Source of the DNA: Fibrobacter sp.
GTDB lineage: Bacteria; Fibrobacterota; Fibrobacteria; Fibrobacterales; Fibrobacteraceae
Length of the DNA stretch: 64,000 bases
Direction of reading: 5' to 3'
Assembly (NCBI GenBank): GCA_017526585.1
Contig: JAFXRC010000019.1
Coordinates: 1 to 64,000, forward strand
Translations under genes and position numbers: made by a program
Notes under the pieces: model-generated
What the model was told of the DNA's origin: nothing
The model's input: the letters and a program-made list of their open reading frames with translations, nothing else
Databases searched by the model: none
Shown here: positions 1 through 59,499 of the stretch, piece after piece
How the letters are laid out: each line of letters opens with the position of its first letter
Numbering within the stretch: the stretch's first letter is position 1

Positions 1-238
1 CCTTATCAGTGACCTTGCCGCTGCTGGAGATTGCTTCGTCCTTATCGTTGGAACGAGAATCACTGGATTCTTCGCGGCTATCGCCGCTCAGAATGACGTT
101 ATTGTCATCGTCACCCGCCGACGAAGAGTCGTCACAGGCGGTCAGGACAAATATTGCCGCGAGCAAGAAGATGGTTAGAGATTGCTTCCCCTGAAACAAG
201 TTCAGGGTCGCAATGACACGCTGGAAAGACTTTCTCAT
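1..238 (-). CDS. Lipoprotein N-terminus, probable FISUMP-family member (partial)
   Basis: Only the first 79 codons lie in the window; the gene runs off the left edge. The protein starts MRKSFQR, has a hydrophobic stretch and ends its signal in a lipobox LTAC at about residue 36, so it should be lipidated and exported. After the cysteine come a DDSSSAGDDD stretch and a serine- and aspartate-rich linker, as in the FISUMP lipoproteins nearby. The FISUMP domain itself is not visible, so family membership is inferred from the signal type, the linker and an upstream region almost identical to that of the 5516-6706 gene. Two REP-like palindromes lie in frame inside it, one within the n-region of the signal peptide. 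Confidence 0.75.
   Translation of the reverse strand, partial: MRKSFQRVIATLNLFQGKQSLTIFLLAAIFVLTACDDSSSAGDDDNNVILSGDSREESSDSRSNDKDEAISSSGKVTDK
61..97 (-). repeat. REP-like palindrome, in frame within a lipoprotein gene
   Basis: On the minus strand the element begins GTCATTCTGA and ends AGAATCCAGTG. It folds as ATTCT, GA, GCGGC, loop GATA, GCCGC, GA, AGAAT. It encodes the NVILSGDSREESSD part of the linker without breaking the frame. The same layout (GTCATT start, GA mismatch, inner stem) is seen at 178-217 and, simplified, at 58592-58619. Confidence 0.6.
178..217 (-). repeat. REP-like palindrome inside a signal peptide
   Basis: On the minus strand it begins GTCATTGCGA and ends GCAATCTC. Outer stem ATTGC/GCAAT and inner stem CCCTGAA/TTCAGGG close on a CTTG loop. 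It encodes about residues 8-20 of the lipoprotein, between MRKSFQR and the hydrophobic core LTIFLLAAIF, so it lengthens the signal peptide n-region in frame. Confidence 0.6.
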
Positions 239-260
239 AAAAAACATCCCTTTGTAAACC

Positions 261-419
261 TTACCCCTAAAAATAACAAAGCACCCCCCTGCACCGCAAG
301 CCTTCAGCGCACATAAAAACAACTTTTTTCAAGATTTTCCGTCAAAATTTCCTATATGACTCATTCTGGGACATATAGGAGATTCTTCCAGGTTACCATG
401 GCGGAGACGGCAATCCTGG
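261..419. repeat. Duplicated FISUMP upstream region, copy 1
   Basis: This stretch is nearly identical to 6728-6889. Both copies contain the run CTAAAAATAACAAAGCAC, then GCACCGCAAGCCTTCAGCG, a T-rich stretch, the 27-bp palindrome and GGAGATTCTTCCAG. Both lie upstream of a minus-strand lipoprotein gene. The two regions must come from a duplication or be held alike by a shared regulatory role. Confidence 0.8.
352..378. promoter_or_regulatory. 27-bp palindromic operator candidate (copy 1)
   Basis: Outer arms CTATATG and CATATAG are perfect and the inner part is imperfect. The near edge lies 114 bp upstream of the lipoprotein start at 238. Same length and outer arms as the sites at 3268-3294 and 6821-6847. 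A dimeric DNA-binding protein site is inferred. Confidence 0.6.
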
Positions 420-591
420 GACAAGACCATCAGCACCACAGGCGACAGGACAAGCCATAAAACCATAGGTTCTTACGTCGATTATTTGTGCAAGGCATTG
501 GCTTTCTACAGTGGCTCTTTACGAGACAAAGGAAAAAGACGGATCTGGCCCCGCCATGGCCGCCCCGCAAGGTTGCCCCTCGCCGAAATTT

Positions 592-915
592 ATGTATATT
601 TCGGGCATGTGCTTGACCAATGTCGATTTCAGCAAGTTCTCGAAGCACCTGTTCTGGGATACGGACAGGAATTCTTTGGACGCCCAAAAGAACAGGGGCT
701 ACATTGTCAAGCAGGTTCTGGAATACGGCTACGACAACGACTGGCGACTTCTCAAGTCCATTTACGGTATCGACGAAATCAAGGACGCCGTCATGGGCAT
801 GAGAACCCTTGAAAAGCGGGCGTTGAGTTTTGTCGCCTGTATCACGCACACCGACATACGCGATTTCCGATGCTATTCTACGAAACAATCGAGCCCAGCA
901 CCCTGGATCTTTTAA
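592..915 (+). CDS. DUF6922-like antitoxin of an AbiEii-type toxin-antitoxin pair
   Basis: A protein of about 107 residues resembling the small DUF6922-type partners encoded just ahead of AbiEii/AbiGii nucleotidyltransferase toxins. The recognisable core runs from DFSKFSKHLFWDTD through YIVKQVLEYGYDNDW to FRCYSTKQSSP near the C-terminus. The frame is open from an ATG at 511, but the residues before 592 look non-coding, and a promoter-like TTGCCC, 16 bp, TATATT lies at 573-600. The true start may be 592 or 607; neither has a clear ribosome site. The gene overlaps the toxin by 46 bp, which suggests translational coupling. The function is inferred from family and context. Confidence 0.7.
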   Translation: MYISGMCLTNVDFSKFSKHLFWDTDRNSLDAQKNRGYIVKQVLEYGYDNDWRLLKSIYGIDEIKDAVMGMRTLEKRALSFVACITHTDIRDFRCYSTKQSSPAPWIF

Positions 916-1481
916 GGCGTATCCAGTCCGAAGCCCTTTTCAAGGAATGCCGCCTTGTCGGCGGGACATCCCTTGCCCTGCAGTTCGGGCACAGAAAATC
1001 CATTGACCTGGATTTCTTCGGAAAATTCGAGCCAGACCCGTTACAGATAAAAGATTTGCTGAAAGGAATCGGTTCCGTTCAGGTCTTACAGGAATCGAAA
1101 TTTATTTTTCAATACGTTGTGAACGACGTAAAGGTCGATTTCGTCAACTATCCCTATGGCTGGATTTCAGAAAGAGTCGATGAAGACAATCTGTATCTCG
1201 CAGGCCCAAGGGACATTGCCGCCATGAAACTTGCGGCCATTACGAACAGGGGGACAAAAAAGGATTTTATCGACCTGTTCGAGTTGCTCGGTCATTTCTC
1301 GCTTGCGCAGATGCTGGACTTCTACAAGGACAAATACGCCGACGGCATTCCTTTCACGACACTGAAAAGCCTGACCTGGTTTGAGGATGCCGAAGACGAC
1401 CCAATGCCCACCATGCTCCGCGACTATTCGTGGGAAAAGGTAAAGGACAGGATTTCAGCCGAAGTCGGCCAGTTGGTGTAA
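870..1481 (+). CDS. AbiEii/AbiGii-type nucleotidyltransferase toxin
   Basis: A 203-residue protein of the AbiEii/AbiGii toxin family (nucleotidyltransferase fold, type IV-like toxin-antitoxin systems). The signature GGTSLALQFGHR followed by SIDLDFF at about residues 31-48 matches the GG(T/S) and DxD nucleotidyltransferase motifs. A second conserved block, DIAAMKLAAITNRGTKKDFIDL, at about 111-133 carries the KxxA and RxxxKD signatures. The N-terminus MLFYETIEPSTLDLL fits the family, which supports this start even though it lies inside the upstream gene. Such toxins modify RNA targets in related systems. The pair sits between two FISUMP genes and looks like an insertion into that cluster. Confidence 0.88.
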   Translation: MLFYETIEPSTLDLLRRIQSEALFKECRLVGGTSLALQFGHRKSIDLDFFGKFEPDPLQIKDLLKGIGSVQVLQESKFIFQYVVNDVKVDFVNYPYGWISERVDEDNLYLAGPRDIAAMKLAAITNRGTKKDFIDLFELLGHFSLAQMLDFYKDKYADGIPFTTLKSLTWFEDAEDDPMPTMLRDYSWEKVKDRISAEVGQLV

Positions 1482-1493
1482 TCCGTCGGCGGG

Positions 1494-3146
1494 TTAGTCA
1501 GAGTCCTTGATGCAGCGGACGGAGTAAGCGGCACTCTTGTCAAGCCTTTCCTTGCCCATTCCATCGGTTCCATAAGCCAAATACTCAGCATCGGTAAAAC
1601 CGTCAAATCGGTCCATGGTAGTATGGAAATAAGTGTAACCTCCGGCAAAGATGAATTCGCCGAAGCTGGCCCTGTAACCAGCAGGAATCCCTGAAAAACC
1701 GAGGGTGTCGGTGCCGATATATTTATAACCACGATATTCCCATCCCATCTGCGACTTGAGAGCCTTGCCTGCCGTTTTTTCGCCCGCTGCAATATACAAG
1801 ATATAGAATTCATCATCATAACCACCTGCATATCTAGGCAAGTGCCAGCCTGAAGGACAAATGCCCCGCACTTTTTTAGGCATAGTGCAGTTAACGCCAT
1901 CACCACAATTCACACCATTGCCATTATCATAGAGTGCAACGGAATCTATTGCCGCCGCCCAGGTGTAAAGGCGACCCGCCACGTCGCAGTTCTCGGTTTT
2001 ATTGTCGTAGCACCAACTGCGTTCCAACAGACTCGGTGTCTTGACGCTGTCAGCGTAGTTCAGGTTCTCCGCCATCCATATCTGGTCACCTATCTGCACC
2101 GTCCTGTAAACCTTGCCGTCGCGTTCATCGGTCATGGTGCCGTAAGTAATATTCGGATTAAAGTGGGCTTCCTTTGGCACATCCCAGTTCCAACTCATTA
2201 GAGAGACCCAACCATTTGCCGTGCAATAATACTTGTTAGTTTCGGTCACAACGCCATTTGTTCTCGTCCCCACTTCTGCGTTGGTGCACGTTTTGCCATA
2301 AGTATCCATGTCAATTTCCTTGGCCTTTTCCCACGAACCATTTTTACAGACAACATAAGACGAAGAATCCTTCTTTCCGATAAATCCATCCCTACTCGCA
2401 TTGCATTCTGGCAACGCCTTTACCGTGTCCTTCACGCAACTCTTTATTTTGTTGTCGTTCCCGCCACCGTCCTTGCAGGTGGACTTTGCGGCATTGAACG
2501 CCATCTCCACGCCCGCTTCGGATTCCATGTTATACATGGAGTAGGTCTTGGAGTTGGTCGTGCCGTCGGCATTCTTGATGGTCACGATAAGGTCCTTGCC
2601 GTCCACCGTGTAGGTGTATTCCGCATCGTCGCCGAAGTTGTCCTTGCGCACGAAGTGCCACGTGCTGATGTCGGTCTTGACCATGGCGTCGCATGCGCCC
2701 ACTTCGGTGCAGGTCTCGTTCACGGTGATTTCCGGTTCAAGGATTTCCGCGGGGCGCGAACTGCTGGACTTGGCGGAACTGCTCGATGTCGCCTCTTCCT
2801 TGTCGTTGCCCGAAGAACCTTCCTTGTCGGCAGTCTTGGAGTCGCTGGAGCCGTCGGTCTTTTTGCTGCTTGACGACTTTGTAGAACTCGGCTTTGTCTG
2901 GTCGTAGGACTTGAACCACGCATCACCATCACACTCATACAGAAGGTCTTCGCTTTCCACGAACACTTTTTCGCCGATGACGCTCATATCGCACTTGTGC
3001 TCTTCAAGTTCCTTCAGGTCCTTGACCTCGGTCGGCAACTTTGTCGCCGGGCTAGATGTGGAACTATCATCGCTGCAGGCGTTGAGCGCAACGGCAAGGG
3101 GAATAACGCTTACAAGCGCCAAAACATTCAACAAACCAAACTTCAT
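1494..3146 (-). CDS. FISUMP-domain lipoprotein (one domain)
   Basis: A 550-residue predicted lipoprotein. A signal peptide ends in the lipobox LNAC at about residue 24. A short cysteine module (EHKCDMSVIGEKVF to ECDGDAWFKSYDQ) follows, then a serine/lysine-rich linker at about 90-135, a middle region of unknown fold with several cysteines, and a C-terminal FISUMP domain from about 330 to 547. The domain shows DERDGKVYRTVQIGDQIWMAENLNY, WCYDN, GRLYTWAAA, GICPSGWHLP and the terminal YSVRCIKD. FISUMP domains are abundant in Fibrobacter and have no proven biochemical role. The N-terminal cysteine module is shared with the 5516-6706 gene, so the two are paralogues. A perfect 27-bp palindrome lies 122 bp upstream. 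Confidence 0.9.
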   Translation of the reverse strand: MKFGLLNVLALVSVIPLAVALNACSDDSSTSSPATKLPTEVKDLKELEEHKCDMSVIGEKVFVESEDLLYECDGDAWFKSYDQTKPSSTKSSSSKKTDGSSDSKTADKEGSSGNDKEEATSSSSAKSSSSRPAEILEPEITVNETCTEVGACDAMVKTDISTWHFVRKDNFGDDAEYTYTVDGKDLIVTIKNADGTTNSKTYSMYNMESEAGVEMAFNAAKSTCKDGGGNDNKIKSCVKDTVKALPECNASRDGFIGKKDSSSYVVCKNGSWEKAKEIDMDTYGKTCTNAEVGTRTNGVVTETNKYYCTANGWVSLMSWNWDVPKEAHFNPNITYGTMTDERDGKVYRTVQIGDQIWMAENLNYADSVKTPSLLERSWCYDNKTENCDVAGRLYTWAAAIDSVALYDNGNGVNCGDGVNCTMPKKVRGICPSGWHLPRYAGGYDDEFYILYIAAGEKTAGKALKSQMGWEYRGYKYIGTDTLGFSGIPAGYRASFGEFIFAGGYTYFHTTMDRFDGFTDAEYLAYGTDGMGKERLDKSAAYSVRCIKDSD

Positions 3147-3267
3147 AAAAATTTCCTCATACTTTTACAACTAAATAGTAGAAAAGAACCAAGCGACTCC
3201 CGACCGCCCGCAGCAACCGCTTTCCCTCAAACGCCCCTCATTTTCCACGCATTTTTAGCCGAATTTT

Positions 3268-3294
3268 CTATATGTAACACTCTGTTACATATAG
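3268..3294. promoter_or_regulatory. 27-bp palindromic operator candidate (copy 2, perfect)
   Basis: Two perfect 12-bp arms, CTATATGTAACA and TGTTACATATAG, separated by 3 bp. It lies 122 bp upstream of the 3146 start. It is the most symmetric of three sites of equal length in the FISUMP cluster and the best guide to the recognised sequence. Confidence 0.7.
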
Positions 3295-3409
3295 GCTGTT
3301 TTCATAGTCAATTCATGAAATTTTACAAGAAACAGCCCAACAAAATGTCTTGCACAATTTATTTGTTCAAACTATATTCCTCCACATCATAATTCTCTAG
3401 AAGCAAAAT

Positions 3410-3549
3410 ATGAAAAAAAACTGATTCTTCTTTCTGCTATTGCCATAGCTGATGTTTTTGACAAATGGGCTTGCAAAACTCACTTTACGGCTCTGCAAAG
3501 CCTGGTTGAACATTTTCCGTTAGTTATATTAGGTGTACTATTGTGCTAG
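3410..3549 (+). pseudogene. Short frame broken at a run of eight adenines
   Basis: An ATG followed by eight A residues reads MKKN then stop. With one extra A it would read MKKKLILLSAIAIADVF and stay open for 46 codons to the TAG at 3547-3549, 17 bp before the next lipoprotein ATG. This could be a decayed secreted-protein start, a slippage-dependent leader peptide, or chance. No homologue is recognised. Confidence 0.3.
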
Positions 3550-3566
3550 ATAAATTTGGAGGCATA

Positions 3567-4985
3567 ATGAAAAAAAACTTGTTCCCGATAACTATGGCTC
3601 TTGGCTTTGCTTTGACGCTAATTGCCTGCGGCGACAGCGGTACCAATTCCGGTAGTGAAGACGAGACTGGCTCCGGCGACAAAAATTCTTTTGAGAATTC
3701 AGGAACAAAAGATGGCGTCGTCAAAATGAGCTCCATGGTTGACCCGCGTGATGGAACAACCTATAAAATTGCTCGGGTCGGTACTCAAGTATGGATGGCC
3801 GAAAATCTAGCTTTCTACGACACGCTGTGGAATCCGAAGATGGCAACAAACAATGTTGAGCAGTCTTCTGATGGTGAGTCTGGACGCAAGTATTCCTATG
3901 AAGTGGCAATGAATTTTGCCTACTATGATGATAGCTTGTATAACGATGGAATATGTCCTCCGGGCTGGCATTTGCCGACCATGGCTGAGTTTGACGAGCT
4001 TAAGACGTTGGTAACCTCTAAATGCGATTCCACTACATTCTGTGGCTTGGCTGAACATGGTTGGGGTGGCTCCAACACTTATTGGACCAGTACATCTACG
4101 GATTATGGTGTTCGCATCGATACGGAGTACGGATACAAATACGAATCCAATTCCCGAATGGCAGTCTGCTATTCCATCGATCTAGGCGGCCGTAAGCCAT
4201 TTGAACCCAATTTTTCAGGAAAGTCTTCTGAAATGTATGTTCGCTGTCTTTTGGGTTCCAAGGCGGATTCCGCCGATGCCATGAAAAAGTTTCAAAGTGT
4301 TCGCCAAAACCGTCTTGATTCCATAAAAATAGCGCAAACTCAATTGGCCCATGACTTGAACGGAGCAAAAAATCATTTCAACGGCGATCTTGAATACAGC
4401 TATTTTACAGATGAGCGCGACAGCAATGTTTACGGATATCTAAAAATCGGCAATTATACCTGGATGGCAGAAAATTTGAGATATGCACCAGGAAAATATC
4501 TGCGTGACCGTCAGGATACAATTGAGTATTATTCAATAGGAAGTGTTTATTATGGCAGCCAGAGAGATTCAATCTGCCCTAGTGGCTGGCATGTGCCGTC
4601 GGTGGCTGAATGGCAAGATTTGTTCACGGTCGCAGATAATATGGGAAACCTCATGGCAACAAATTCCTATTGGGATCCTTCTGAGGTAAAGCCTACGAAT
4701 ACGACCGGTTTTACCATGTTGCCGACTAGGAAGTTTTTGGGGAAAGTGGAAAAGAGTCCCTTCAATGAAACCGAGTTTTGGACAAGCGAAGACTCTTTGG
4801 AGGTAAGAATGGTAATTGATACTGTTTACACCGATTCTGTTGAGGCTGAAAATTTCACCTTGGATACGACATACGTTGATAAGCTCTATAATTTATACTA
4901 TGAATATAGTTGGATATGGAAAAATTTTGATTTAGAGATGGGCAGTTCTACTCATGGGCTCTACGTTCGTTGCGTGAAGGATTGA
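3567..4985 (+). CDS. FISUMP-domain lipoprotein (two domains)
   Basis: A 472-residue predicted lipoprotein. The start chosen is the ATG at 3567, preceded by GGAGG at good spacing and followed by a signal peptide with lipobox LIAC. Two FISUMP domains follow a short acidic linker. The first is at about 53-230 (DPRDGTTYKIARVG, WMAENL, GICPPGWHLP, YVRCLLG) and the second at about 273-472 (DERDSNVYGYLKIGNYTWMAENLRY, SICPSGWHVP, YVRCVKD). It is encoded on the opposite strand to its paralogues on either side and is visibly more AT-rich than them. The downstream small lipoprotein gene follows after 38 bp and is probably in the same transcript. The biochemical role is unknown. Confidence 0.9.
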   Translation: MKKNLFPITMALGFALTLIACGDSGTNSGSEDETGSGDKNSFENSGTKDGVVKMSSMVDPRDGTTYKIARVGTQVWMAENLAFYDTLWNPKMATNNVEQSSDGESGRKYSYEVAMNFAYYDDSLYNDGICPPGWHLPTMAEFDELKTLVTSKCDSTTFCGLAEHGWGGSNTYWTSTSTDYGVRIDTEYGYKYESNSRMAVCYSIDLGGRKPFEPNFSGKSSEMYVRCLLGSKADSADAMKKFQSVRQNRLDSIKIAQTQLAHDLNGAKNHFNGDLEYSYFTDERDSNVYGYLKIGNYTWMAENLRYAPGKYLRDRQDTIEYYSIGSVYYGSQRDSICPSGWHVPSVAEWQDLFTVADNMGNLMATNSYWDPSEVKPTNTTGFTMLPTRKFLGKVEKSPFNETEFWTSEDSLEVRMVIDTVYTDSVEAENFTLDTTYVDKLYNLYYEYSWIWKNFDLEMGSSTHGLYVRCVKD

Positions 4986-5023
4986 TAACCTGGTTGCCAA
5001 TGCTTAAAATAAAAGGACCAAAA

Positions 5024-57102: not shown

Positions 57103-59499
57103 ATGCCCGACTTTATTTCCATACGCGGCTGTAGGCTGCACAATCTCAAAAATGTAGACGCCCAGTTCCCGCTGGGCAAAATTACGGTAGTGTGCGGACC
57201 TTCGGGCTGCGGAAAGTCGACGCTTGTGCTTGACACCCTGCACGGGGAATCCAAGCGGCGTTACCTAGAGACGCTTTCTCCGTTTGCGGCTGAATTGCTC
57301 GGCGGTCGGCGCATTATTCCGCTGGATAGTGCAGAAGGTTTACCCGCAAGCCTCGCCGTAGGTCCCAGCCACGGTGAAACGCCCACGAAAGCTTATGCGT
57401 TGAGCATTTCGGAATGCGATTCTACATTGCGAGCCTTGTTTGCAGCGTATGCGAAGCCCGCTTGCCCCGTTTGCGGAAAGCCCATGGAAAGCATGAGTCG
57501 CGAAGACATGATTCGCGAAATTGCGAGCCTGCCGCAAGGGAGTAAGCTGCAGTTTTTTGCAAGAGTGGACGCCGAGAAGCGCGCGAATCTTGACAAGTTG
57601 GCAGCGGTGTTCCTGGCGCAAGGTTTTACGCGAGCCATGGCAGATGACGTCAGCTATTCTCTTGCCGACTTGACTGAAAACGAAAAGACGATTGTCCCGA
57701 AGGAATTCTTTATTGTCGTGGACCGCGTGATTGTCCGCGAGAATACGCGCACCCGCATTGCAGAAGCGGTAGACGGAGTCCTGAAGCTTACGCACGGCGA
57801 ATTGATACTGGATATCAACGGGAACCGTAAACTTTTCAGCACGGTGCCGCGCTGCCCGGAACATGGAGCGCAGCTTTCGAGACCGCTCGCACCAGAAGAC
57901 TTGTCGCCGTATTCCCGCACGAGCATTTGCGAAAAATGTGGCGGTACCGGAATCATCGAAGATGGTGACAGCAGCGAAGATTGCCCCGATTGCAAGGGTC
58001 TTCGACTCAAGCAAAATTTTTTGAATGCCGTTATTGAAAGTATTTCAAGTGAAGATGAACCGCGCAAAATCCGTACCACCTGGCAAGATATCTTATGCAC
58101 GCCTTTTGCGGAACTCGAAAGCCGGCTACACGCCCTGTTCGATGATCGACTGACGGCAAAGCAGCAGCCCGCATTCCGCACGCTCGTAGACCGCATCCAG
58201 GCAATTGTCGATTTAGATATCGGTTACCTCACGGCAGGGCGTGCAGGTGCCACCCTATCGGGTGGCGAAGTCCAGAGACTTCGGCTTTCGAGCCTCAGCA
58301 CAGGTCACCTGAACAACCTCCTGATTGTCCTCGACGAACCCGCCAGCGGACTCCACCAGAGCGATGTCGATGCCCTCTGGAAAGTCCTCAAGAAGGTACA
58401 ATCTCGAGGAAACACGCTGGTCCTCATCGACCACAATCCCGCCCTCATCAAGAAAGCCGACTGGATTATTGAAATGGGACCTGGCGCCGGCGAAAAGGGC
58501 GGCGAAATATTGTTGCAGGGAACCGCGAAAGAAGTTCTCGGGAATCCGGCATCACCCACGGGGAATTGGATCCACTTGCTCGACGAGAAAAGGAGATTCC
58601 CGGTCGAGCCGGGAATGACAAAGGGCAAGTCGGGAAAGACATCCGCAAAGAAAGCAGCGACTATCGATGTCGAAGACTTCGCAATGTTCGACATGAAGTC
58701 GGTCACCGCACATTTCCCGGTGCAAAAGTTCAGCGTCATCACGGGTCAGAGCGGTAGTGGCAAGTCCACGATTTTCTTCAGGAACCTCGCCCCACGTGCA
58801 TCCAAGGGTGAATTCGAAAGCCTCGGCATCCAAGCTCTATCGATTCTTTCGACAGGTGATTTCCACGGGAACCGCCGCAGTACCGTCGCCTCGGCCATCA
58901 ACCTGAACACGATTCTCCGCGACCTTTTCGCGAAGCTCCCCGAAAGCAAGGTCCGCGGCTACACCGCTAGCAAATTCGCGACGCACGCCCCCGGGGGCCG
59001 CTGCGAAAACTGCAAGGGCGAAGGCGTTATTCTCGACCCCGCGGGCTACGAAGAATCCGAATGCCCCGTGTGCCTCGGCAGACGCTTCAAGGACGAAATT
59101 CTCGAAGTCCGCTTCAAGTCGCTTTCCATCGCCGACATCTATGACTTAGAAGTCGGCGACGCCTACAAATTGTTCATTAACATGAAGCCTTTCGCCGACA
59201 AGCTCAAGCCGCTTGTAGATACGGGCCTCGACTACCTGAAACTCGGGCAGACTACGACGCACCTTTCCGGCGGTGAACGCGCCCGCTTGCGCCTTTCCAT
59301 CGCCCTCGCTCGCGCGAAGGCTCCGAATACGCTTTTCCTTTTCGACGAGCCTGCCCGTGGTCTCCATCAAAAGGACATCCAGCATCTACTCGATCTGATT
59401 CGCGGCCTCACCGAAGCGGGCCACACCGTCATTGCCATCGAGCACGCACAAGACTTCGTAAACGCCGCCGATTACGCCGTGGAACTTTCGCGTAAGTAG
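57103..59499 (+). CDS. UvrA-family excinuclease ATPase (short paralogue)
   Basis: A 798-residue ABC ATPase of the UvrA family. ATPase I has GPSGCGKSTLVLD at 33-45 and LSGGEVQRLRLSSL near 386. ATPase II has TGQSGSGKSTIFF near 548 and HLSGGERARLRLSIALA near 723. Three zinc-type cysteine sets are present: CPVCGK near 124, CEKCGGTG with CPDCKG near 287-305, and CENCKGEG with CPVCLG near 637-660. UvrA proper is about 940 residues, so this is a shorter form, perhaps UvrA2-like; whether it is the only UvrA cannot be seen from this window. A REP-like palindrome lies in frame at residues 497-506, in the linker between the two ATPase halves. Confidence 0.87.
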   Translation: MPDFISIRGCRLHNLKNVDAQFPLGKITVVCGPSGCGKSTLVLDTLHGESKRRYLETLSPFAAELLGGRRIIPLDSAEGLPASLAVGPSHGETPTKAYALSISECDSTLRALFAAYAKPACPVCGKPMESMSREDMIREIASLPQGSKLQFFARVDAEKRANLDKLAAVFLAQGFTRAMADDVSYSLADLTENEKTIVPKEFFIVVDRVIVRENTRTRIAEAVDGVLKLTHGELILDINGNRKLFSTVPRCPEHGAQLSRPLAPEDLSPYSRTSICEKCGGTGIIEDGDSSEDCPDCKGLRLKQNFLNAVIESISSEDEPRKIRTTWQDILCTPFAELESRLHALFDDRLTAKQQPAFRTLVDRIQAIVDLDIGYLTAGRAGATLSGGEVQRLRLSSLSTGHLNNLLIVLDEPASGLHQSDVDALWKVLKKVQSRGNTLVLIDHNPALIKKADWIIEMGPGAGEKGGEILLQGTAKEVLGNPASPTGNWIHLLDEKRRFPVEPGMTKGKSGKTSAKKAATIDVEDFAMFDMKSVTAHFPVQKFSVITGQSGSGKSTIFFRNLAPRASKGEFESLGIQALSILSTGDFHGNRRSTVASAINLNTILRDLFAKLPESKVRGYTASKFATHAPGGRCENCKGEGVILDPAGYEESECPVCLGRRFKDEILEVRFKSLSIADIYDLEVGDAYKLFINMKPFADKLKPLVDTGLDYLKLGQTTTHLSGGERARLRLSIALARAKAPNTLFLFDEPARGLHQKDIQHLLDLIRGLTEAGHTVIAIEHAQDFVNAADYAVELSRK
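58592..58619. repeat. REP-like palindrome in frame within the UvrA-family gene
   Basis: Arms ATTCCCGG and CCGGGAAT around a short loop, flanked by GGAG and GAC; read on the minus strand it starts GTCATTCCCGG. It encodes RRFPVEPGMT in the inter-domain linker. Same family layout as the elements at 61-97 and 178-217. Confidence 0.65.

Follow-up and report, generated by a model that had tools for sequence, protein, structure and literature searches.

The window, i.e. the whole stretch of 64,000 nucleotides analysed here, is the beginning of contig C23 of a Fibrobacter genome of 2.85 Mb in 75 contigs, about 81% complete (G000, hereafter the source genome). Its first nucleotides carry the 5' part of a gene for a FISUMP lipoprotein (Table 1), whose ATG lies at 238-236 and which is truncated by the end of the window, this being also the end of the contig. 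The gene is completed on contig C74, by an overlap of 141 nt (window 1-141; L269), and the completed lipoprotein—346 aa, counted from an in-frame ATG nine bases upstream of the one at 238-236—has a single FISUMP domain (TIGR02145, E 7e-58). Ser/Asp-rich linkers are characteristic of these FISUMP lipoproteins; at least one further FISUMP paralogue adjoins the gene on C74. The second gene of interest encodes a UvrA-like protein, which scores 558.9 bits against TIGR00630, under the cut-off of 729.8, and whose closest named relatives are found in Fibrobacter genomes, many of them of rumen origin.

Table 1. Genes and palindromic elements of the window
Feature	Positions	Strand	Remarks
FISUMP (Fib_succ_major) lipoprotein gene, 5' part	1..238	-	TIGR02145, E 7e-58
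Eroded third element, type GTCATTGCGAG...CGAAGCAATC	29..57	-	inside DSRSNDKDEAIS; from alignment with paralogues
Element A, type GTCATTCTGAGCG...CGAAGAATC	66..97	-	GTCATTCTGAGCGGCGATAGCCGCGAAGAATC, read 97-66; encodes VILSGDSREES, Ser/Asp-rich linker
Element B, type GTCATTGCGA...GAAGCAATC	180..217	-	GTCATTGCGACCCTGAACTTGTTTCAGGGGAAGCAATC, read 217-180; encodes VIATLNLFQGKQS, signal peptide n-region
UvrA-like two-ATPase protein, 798 aa	57103..59499	+	best NCBIfam match TIGR00630
Element C, 8-bp stem + 5-nt loop, GTCATTCCCGG...CCGGGAATC	58595..58619	-	antisense to UvrA-like gene

An earlier note on this DNA had described two palindromes lying in frame in the lipoprotein gene, one of them adding about 13 residues to the signal peptide after MRKSFQR, and a further copy in the linker of the UvrA-family protein. 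Elements A and B are both in frame, B directly 3' of the MRKSFQR codons and 13 codons long, and element C is found at the expected place, where it encodes RFPVEPGMT on the coding strand of the gene, in the linker that joins the two ATPase halves. Two is nevertheless not the full number for the lipoprotein gene: a third, eroded element had been overlooked, of which paralogues keep an intact version (RHCEDCKDEAIS / SRHCEDCKDEAIS), and which, folded as a slightly longer stretch, does no better than its shuffles (z -0.31).

As single-stranded DNA, elements A, B and C fold with -9.1, -9.4 and -8.5 kcal/mol respectively (z from -3.8 to -4.2). The fold of A is made of 5 bp, a GA/GA step (2x2 internal loop), 5 bp and a loop of 4, that of B of 5 bp, a GA/GAA step, 7 bp and a loop of 5, while C has an uninterrupted stem of 8 bp closed by a loop of 5 nt; the plan with GA mismatches, which the earlier note took to be common to all three, thus applies to A and B only. 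The stem of C is presumably that of Neisseria dRS3, ATTCCC...GGGAAT. In the 64-kb window the generic pattern GTCATYSYSRN{7,37}RSRATC matches exactly A, B and C, and in 100 shuffles of the window it found 0.34 matches on average and never reached three. A search of Rfam with window positions 1-5000 gave no match at the gathering threshold.

The same pattern finds 139, 404 and 79 matches in three genomes, the first being the source genome, as compared with 2, 2 and 3 for the reversed control; a separate abundance count gave 36 matches against 1 for the reversed control. A strict type-A pattern is present in 17 of 19 genomes of the genus and in none of 12 outside it, its reversed control being absent throughout. 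Each Fibrobacter genome examined thus has tens to hundreds of repeats, and copies of the same sequence types lie mostly outside genes. In 19 elements of 40 nt, chosen by length from the genome pattern matches, all 190 stem cells are paired, with changes on both sides in 25 of them; none of 500 shuffles came as high, and controls slid along the sequence paired at 18-47%. The stems therefore covary. The tag and the outer stem are constant, whereas the inner hairpin is free in length and in sequence. The generic pattern with its reversed control took the place of a covariance model, since the MAFFT alignment of the seed set did not place the long inner hairpins correctly.

Genes are strongly depleted of these repeats in a second genome, G004: in 40 stretches of 20 kb only 18 of 109 matches lie within ORFs, about 4 of these 18 looking non-palindromic, despite an ORF coverage of 87%. 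Yet some copies do lie in frame in genes, as was found when Fibrobacter genomes were scanned for them, a check that the earlier note had proposed. The stretches taken from the source genome account for 105 distinct matches, counting nested and truncated ones, out of the 139 genome-wide; a palindrome filter and the removal of nested matches left 95. For 27 of the 95 both flanks score as coding on one strand, in the same frame in 23 cases and in a changed frame in 4. Of the 23, about 18 can be taken as clear repeats; the other 5 have by eye no inner stem and are probably ordinary coding sequence. Element B comes in addition to the 23, its upstream flank being too short for scoring. Among the hosts recognised by Pfam are SecA (copy in the tail, before the SEC-C motif), an HhH-GPD glycosylase, MutY-like by reading of its sequence, a UvrD helicase, a TrpC-TrpF fusion (copy between the domains), an HrpB helicase (two copies), ScpA (tail), an ABC protein, a glycosyltransferase, an aminotransferase and the FISUMP lipoprotein L155, with a copy within the signal peptide; by reading alone, the FISUMP lipoprotein L019, a restriction-modification-like protein with two copies and others are added.

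From 82 loci of the UvrA-like gene (L199, outside the genus, being omitted), 2 unparsed ones and 18 duplicates were set aside, leaving 62 distinct coding sequences. A strict match falls in the inter-ATPase linker of 32 of them, over 2,280 linker codons, with none for the reversed control. The other 48,774 codons have 10 matches: 7 fall on a single conserved coding stretch, not a repeat, and 3 are true copies that occupy a second site, which precedes the second Walker A motif by about 400 codons. The UvrA-like linker is therefore a hot spot for repeat copies. These linker counts with their controls, the shuffles and the stem covariation rule out that we are dealing with chance palindromes. We do not rely on a codon-shuffle hairpin scan of the linkers, which was weak for types with a G·A interruption.

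The linker copies are of several types and in both orientations, and give different peptides from different frames. The exchange of type and orientation has been repeated: on a FastTree tree of 61 rows, computed with the linker excluded (L197, without anchor, was omitted), we count at least 25 changes among nine states and at least 18 of presence or absence, 14 of the 58 forks being weakly supported and such counts being unable to separate linker transfer from insertion. Even L077 and L203, sisters with 96.2% identity, differ in repeat type and carry their copies in opposite orientation. When orthologues with and without an insert were compared, another check proposed beforehand, an exact 24-bp in-frame insert was found in L181 and L073 and an empty site in their near relatives L157, L071 and L075, with near-identical flanks and no target duplication beyond about 1 bp. 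This insert is of a short type (peptide ARPEPVEG) and has no GTCAT tag, so that the clearest case of an empty site does not involve precisely type A, B or C. L073 and L075 also carry a longer insert at the second site, EIPDQVREDK / EIPDQVRDDK, which the 7 other sequences of the alignment lack.

Two side observations concern the same gene. A second, rarer insertion site lies near codon 160, in L073, L075, L172 and L207. Tandem repeats (GACGAGA-like, GGAATTC-like, GAGGCAC-like) are present in the linkers of L071, L086, L163, L205 and others; hence not all turnover of the linker is due to palindromes.

Very probably, elements A, B and C are copies of a dispersed, non-autonomous family of the kind of the CGTC-REPs and of the Rickettsia palindromic elements RPE-4, RPE-6 and RPE-7, inserted in genes and tolerated in frame as peptide. 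The members are built on a tag GTC and a stem starting with AT, which continues either as a plain 8-bp stem or, after about 5 bp, as a G·A step with a freely varying inner hairpin. These short units may insert as folded single strands close to the replication fork, and an enzyme acting in trans may mobilise them. Most insertions in genes would be lost because they break the frame or the fold; copies with an open frame that fall in a flexible linker, a tail or an n-region would persist as nearly neutral peptide. The likeness to Rickettsia, that is DNA inserted into genes and tolerated as peptide, was already drawn in the earlier note, and the genome-wide family, the compensatory changes in the stems and the exact 24-bp insert with its empty sites bear it out, as does the occupation of the same protein position by unrelated repeat types.

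One may ask whether it is the peptide that is selected rather than the DNA, the residues of the linker and n-region being functional and the palindrome a by-product of codon choice. The near identity of element A across many lipoprotein paralogues and the fact that Ser/Asp-rich linkers are typical of these proteins go in this direction. However, the same sequence types exist in tens to hundreds of copies, mostly extragenic, with compensatory changes in their stems, and the UvrA-like linkers hold different peptides, drawn from different frames, orientations and types and differing even between sister species. Conservation of the residues with unrelated codons was what the earlier note had named as speaking against inserted DNA: in the UvrA-like linker the peptide is clearly not conserved, and conservation at the peptide level is ruled out there; in the lipoprotein, the copies are nearly identical at the DNA level. 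We consider this explanation highly improbable.

That copies in genes spread chiefly through the exchange of whole linker modules between paralogues and strains, by homologous recombination or gene conversion, instead of transposition of the repeat, is a more serious, if still doubtful, alternative, and one that may combine with insertion. Element A is almost base-for-base common to the paralogues, including those with other signal peptides, adjacent FISUMP genes have modules in common, and the changes counted on the UvrA-like tree could be transfers as well as insertions. On the other hand, the exact 24-bp insertion between near-identical flanks needs the insertion of the short unit itself, and so does the presence of repeats in genes as unrelated as those of SecA, the MutY-like glycosylase and ScpA. 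For the lipoprotein we keep to the insertion of a dispersed repeat, with recombination among FISUMP paralogues as the process that would spread the linker module: element A being near-identical in every copy, its insertion event itself is not seen, and it has probably spread by recombination since.

In the signal peptide, the N-terminus M[RK]KSFQR followed by VIATLNLFQGKQS is shared by the window with L043 (the same gene in L063), L046, L047, L048, L049 and L062; L050 has at the same n-region position a different repeat-derived peptide, APRSLSLPKGR, and L065 an n-region without repeat. Repeat-derived peptides also occur in the signal peptide n-region of two further lipoproteins, L155 and L066. 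Judging from these sequences, insertion into the signal peptide appears to have its best support in L155 and in the alternative repeat of L050. Element B extends the n-region and leaves the hydrophobic core and the lipobox (LTAC) intact, so that export of the lipoprotein would be expected to go on.

Element B might also not be translated. The true start could be downstream, at a TTG inside the element, in which case the repeat would be an mRNA hairpin only; N-terminal REPs carry this caveat, as noted in the sections of PMC3733652 drawn on here. The in-frame TTG would leave a short n-region with one lysine, and the hairpin is stable. Nevertheless the M[RK]KSFQR N-terminus is kept in six further genes, although the residues upstream of its Met differ between some of them, there is no in-frame ATG from the repeat to the hydrophobic core, and no ribosome-binding site is seen before the TTG. 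A start inside the element seems to us unlikely, and we retain element B as an inserted repeat that forms part of the predicted signal peptide.

How do these repeats compare with those already described? CGTC-REPs were defined by Di Nocera, De Gregorio and Rocco in 2013 to include RPE-4 and RPE-6; copies are reported inside genes, uvrA and other repair genes among them, and no dedicated transposase is described in the sections of the paper drawn on here (PMC3733652). Our repeats share with them a GTC tag (CGTC or TGTC), a stem starting with AT, perhaps a short tail, many dispersed copies and a presence in some genes (PMC3733652, same sections). The unpaired tag of CGTC-REPs is CGTC, TGTC or CCTC, and on the element strand A has CGTC, B and C TGTC; their short unpaired tails are mostly CCA, with which A ends, B and C ending with CTC. 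Like CGTC-REPs, the Fibrobacter repeats are dispersed, multicopy and without linked transposase. Element C has the uninterrupted stem of 8-9 bp, starting A-T, T-A, with a loop of 4-5. By contrast, A and B with their G·A step and variable inner hairpins depart from the published stems of 8-9 bp and loops of 4-5 nt (PMC3733652, as far as these sections go), and since their stems are interrupted we file them as a variant and do not name them CGTC family. The tag GTC and the lack of a flanking Y1 transposase separate the repeats from the RAYT-mobilised (GTAG) REPs. Neisseria dRS3, which is CGTC-1, forms mostly large clusters in Neisseria (PMC3733652, same sections), whereas the repeats are scattered in Fibrobacter.

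With RPE-4, RPE-6 and RPE-7 the likeness lies in the ATGAC/GTCAT motif, in the in-frame position in conserved genes, with orthologues devoid of the repeat, and in the presence of different groups at or near one site of Rickettsia orthologues; whether such sites are hot spots is left open in the part of PMC3767692 used here. The differences are the inserts of 84-192 nt among the table rows listed there, against mostly single units of about 24-50 nt in Fibrobacter, the unrelated host, and the clean empty sites and opposite orientations of Fibrobacter (PMC3767692, same part). A mobile repeat contributing to a signal peptide is known from the Yersinia MITE YPAL/RU-2, which belongs to a different family and, in the portion of PMC2229807 consulted, is described as giving rise to a putative new exported protein, not as having inserted into a lipoprotein family that already existed.

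Precedents thus exist for copies in genes, for copies in uvrA and for a signal peptide made partly from a mobile repeat. Among the matches listed in openly licensed papers we found no Fibrobacter report with palindromic or repetitive extragenic palindromic elements and, for the nucleotide strings of the repeats, no evident repeat study; Fibrobacter is absent from the main text of two REP papers searched by term, PMC3733652 included. What appears new is the genus Fibrobacter, stems interrupted by a G·A step, rapid turnover at a single hinge and the leading-strand bias examined below. The evidence supports the earlier reading in substance: a known kind of repeat, in a new genus. An unrelated genus is found to turn palindromic DNA into predicted protein on a scale fit for comparative tests, and one gene, the UvrA-like one, supplies dozens of orthologues whose inserts differ, and clean empty sites as well. 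Fibrobacter moreover has cultivable members. For annotation, it is a warning that many Fibrobacter linker peptides are derived from repeats.

A bias of strand bears on the way these repeats may move. In G004 the repeat strand that reads GTCAT coincides with the G-rich strand, as given by the local GC skew, in 71 of 98 cases (71:27; p 1e-5; loci L270-L309), 11 of the 109 matches, in stretches of weak skew, being left uncounted; for the repeats outside ORFs it is 55 of 81 (p 0.0017). The source genome, where stretches are shorter and noisier, gives 62 of 95 (p 0.004), and 36 of 57 (p 0.06) in the stretches with a skew of at least 0.05. The G-rich strand is presumably the leading strand. A direction relative to the fork, together with the hairpins, suggests insertion of single-stranded DNA, which is how IS200/IS605-type elements insert. 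A RAYT or IS200-type enzyme was rejected as the obvious resident mover: PF01797 (Y1 transposase) was not found in the source genome, about 81% complete, and, while it is present in 20 of 61 genomes of the genus, a repeat is nearby in only 1 of 12 Y1 loci (L098-L109), about 190 bp downstream. The Y1-type transposases of these loci, about 130-150 aa where read, are without consistent link to the repeats.

We may tentatively go further and suppose that the CGTC-type repeats of Fibrobacter are still mobile, inserting as folded single strands in a direction set by the fork, and that re-insertion at tolerated hinges—the UvrA-like linker, lipoprotein linkers, n-regions—supplies new linker peptides; this we hold as a possibility, not as the likelier case. 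If it were true, such steady re-insertion would decide, in the question raised for RPE-4, RPE-6 and RPE-7, for real hot spots against one old diverged insert. The leading-strand bias, if it holds in other genomes, would be a handle on how CGTC-REPs move. In the first 20 stretches of G004, the genes themselves are about evenly divided between the two strands.
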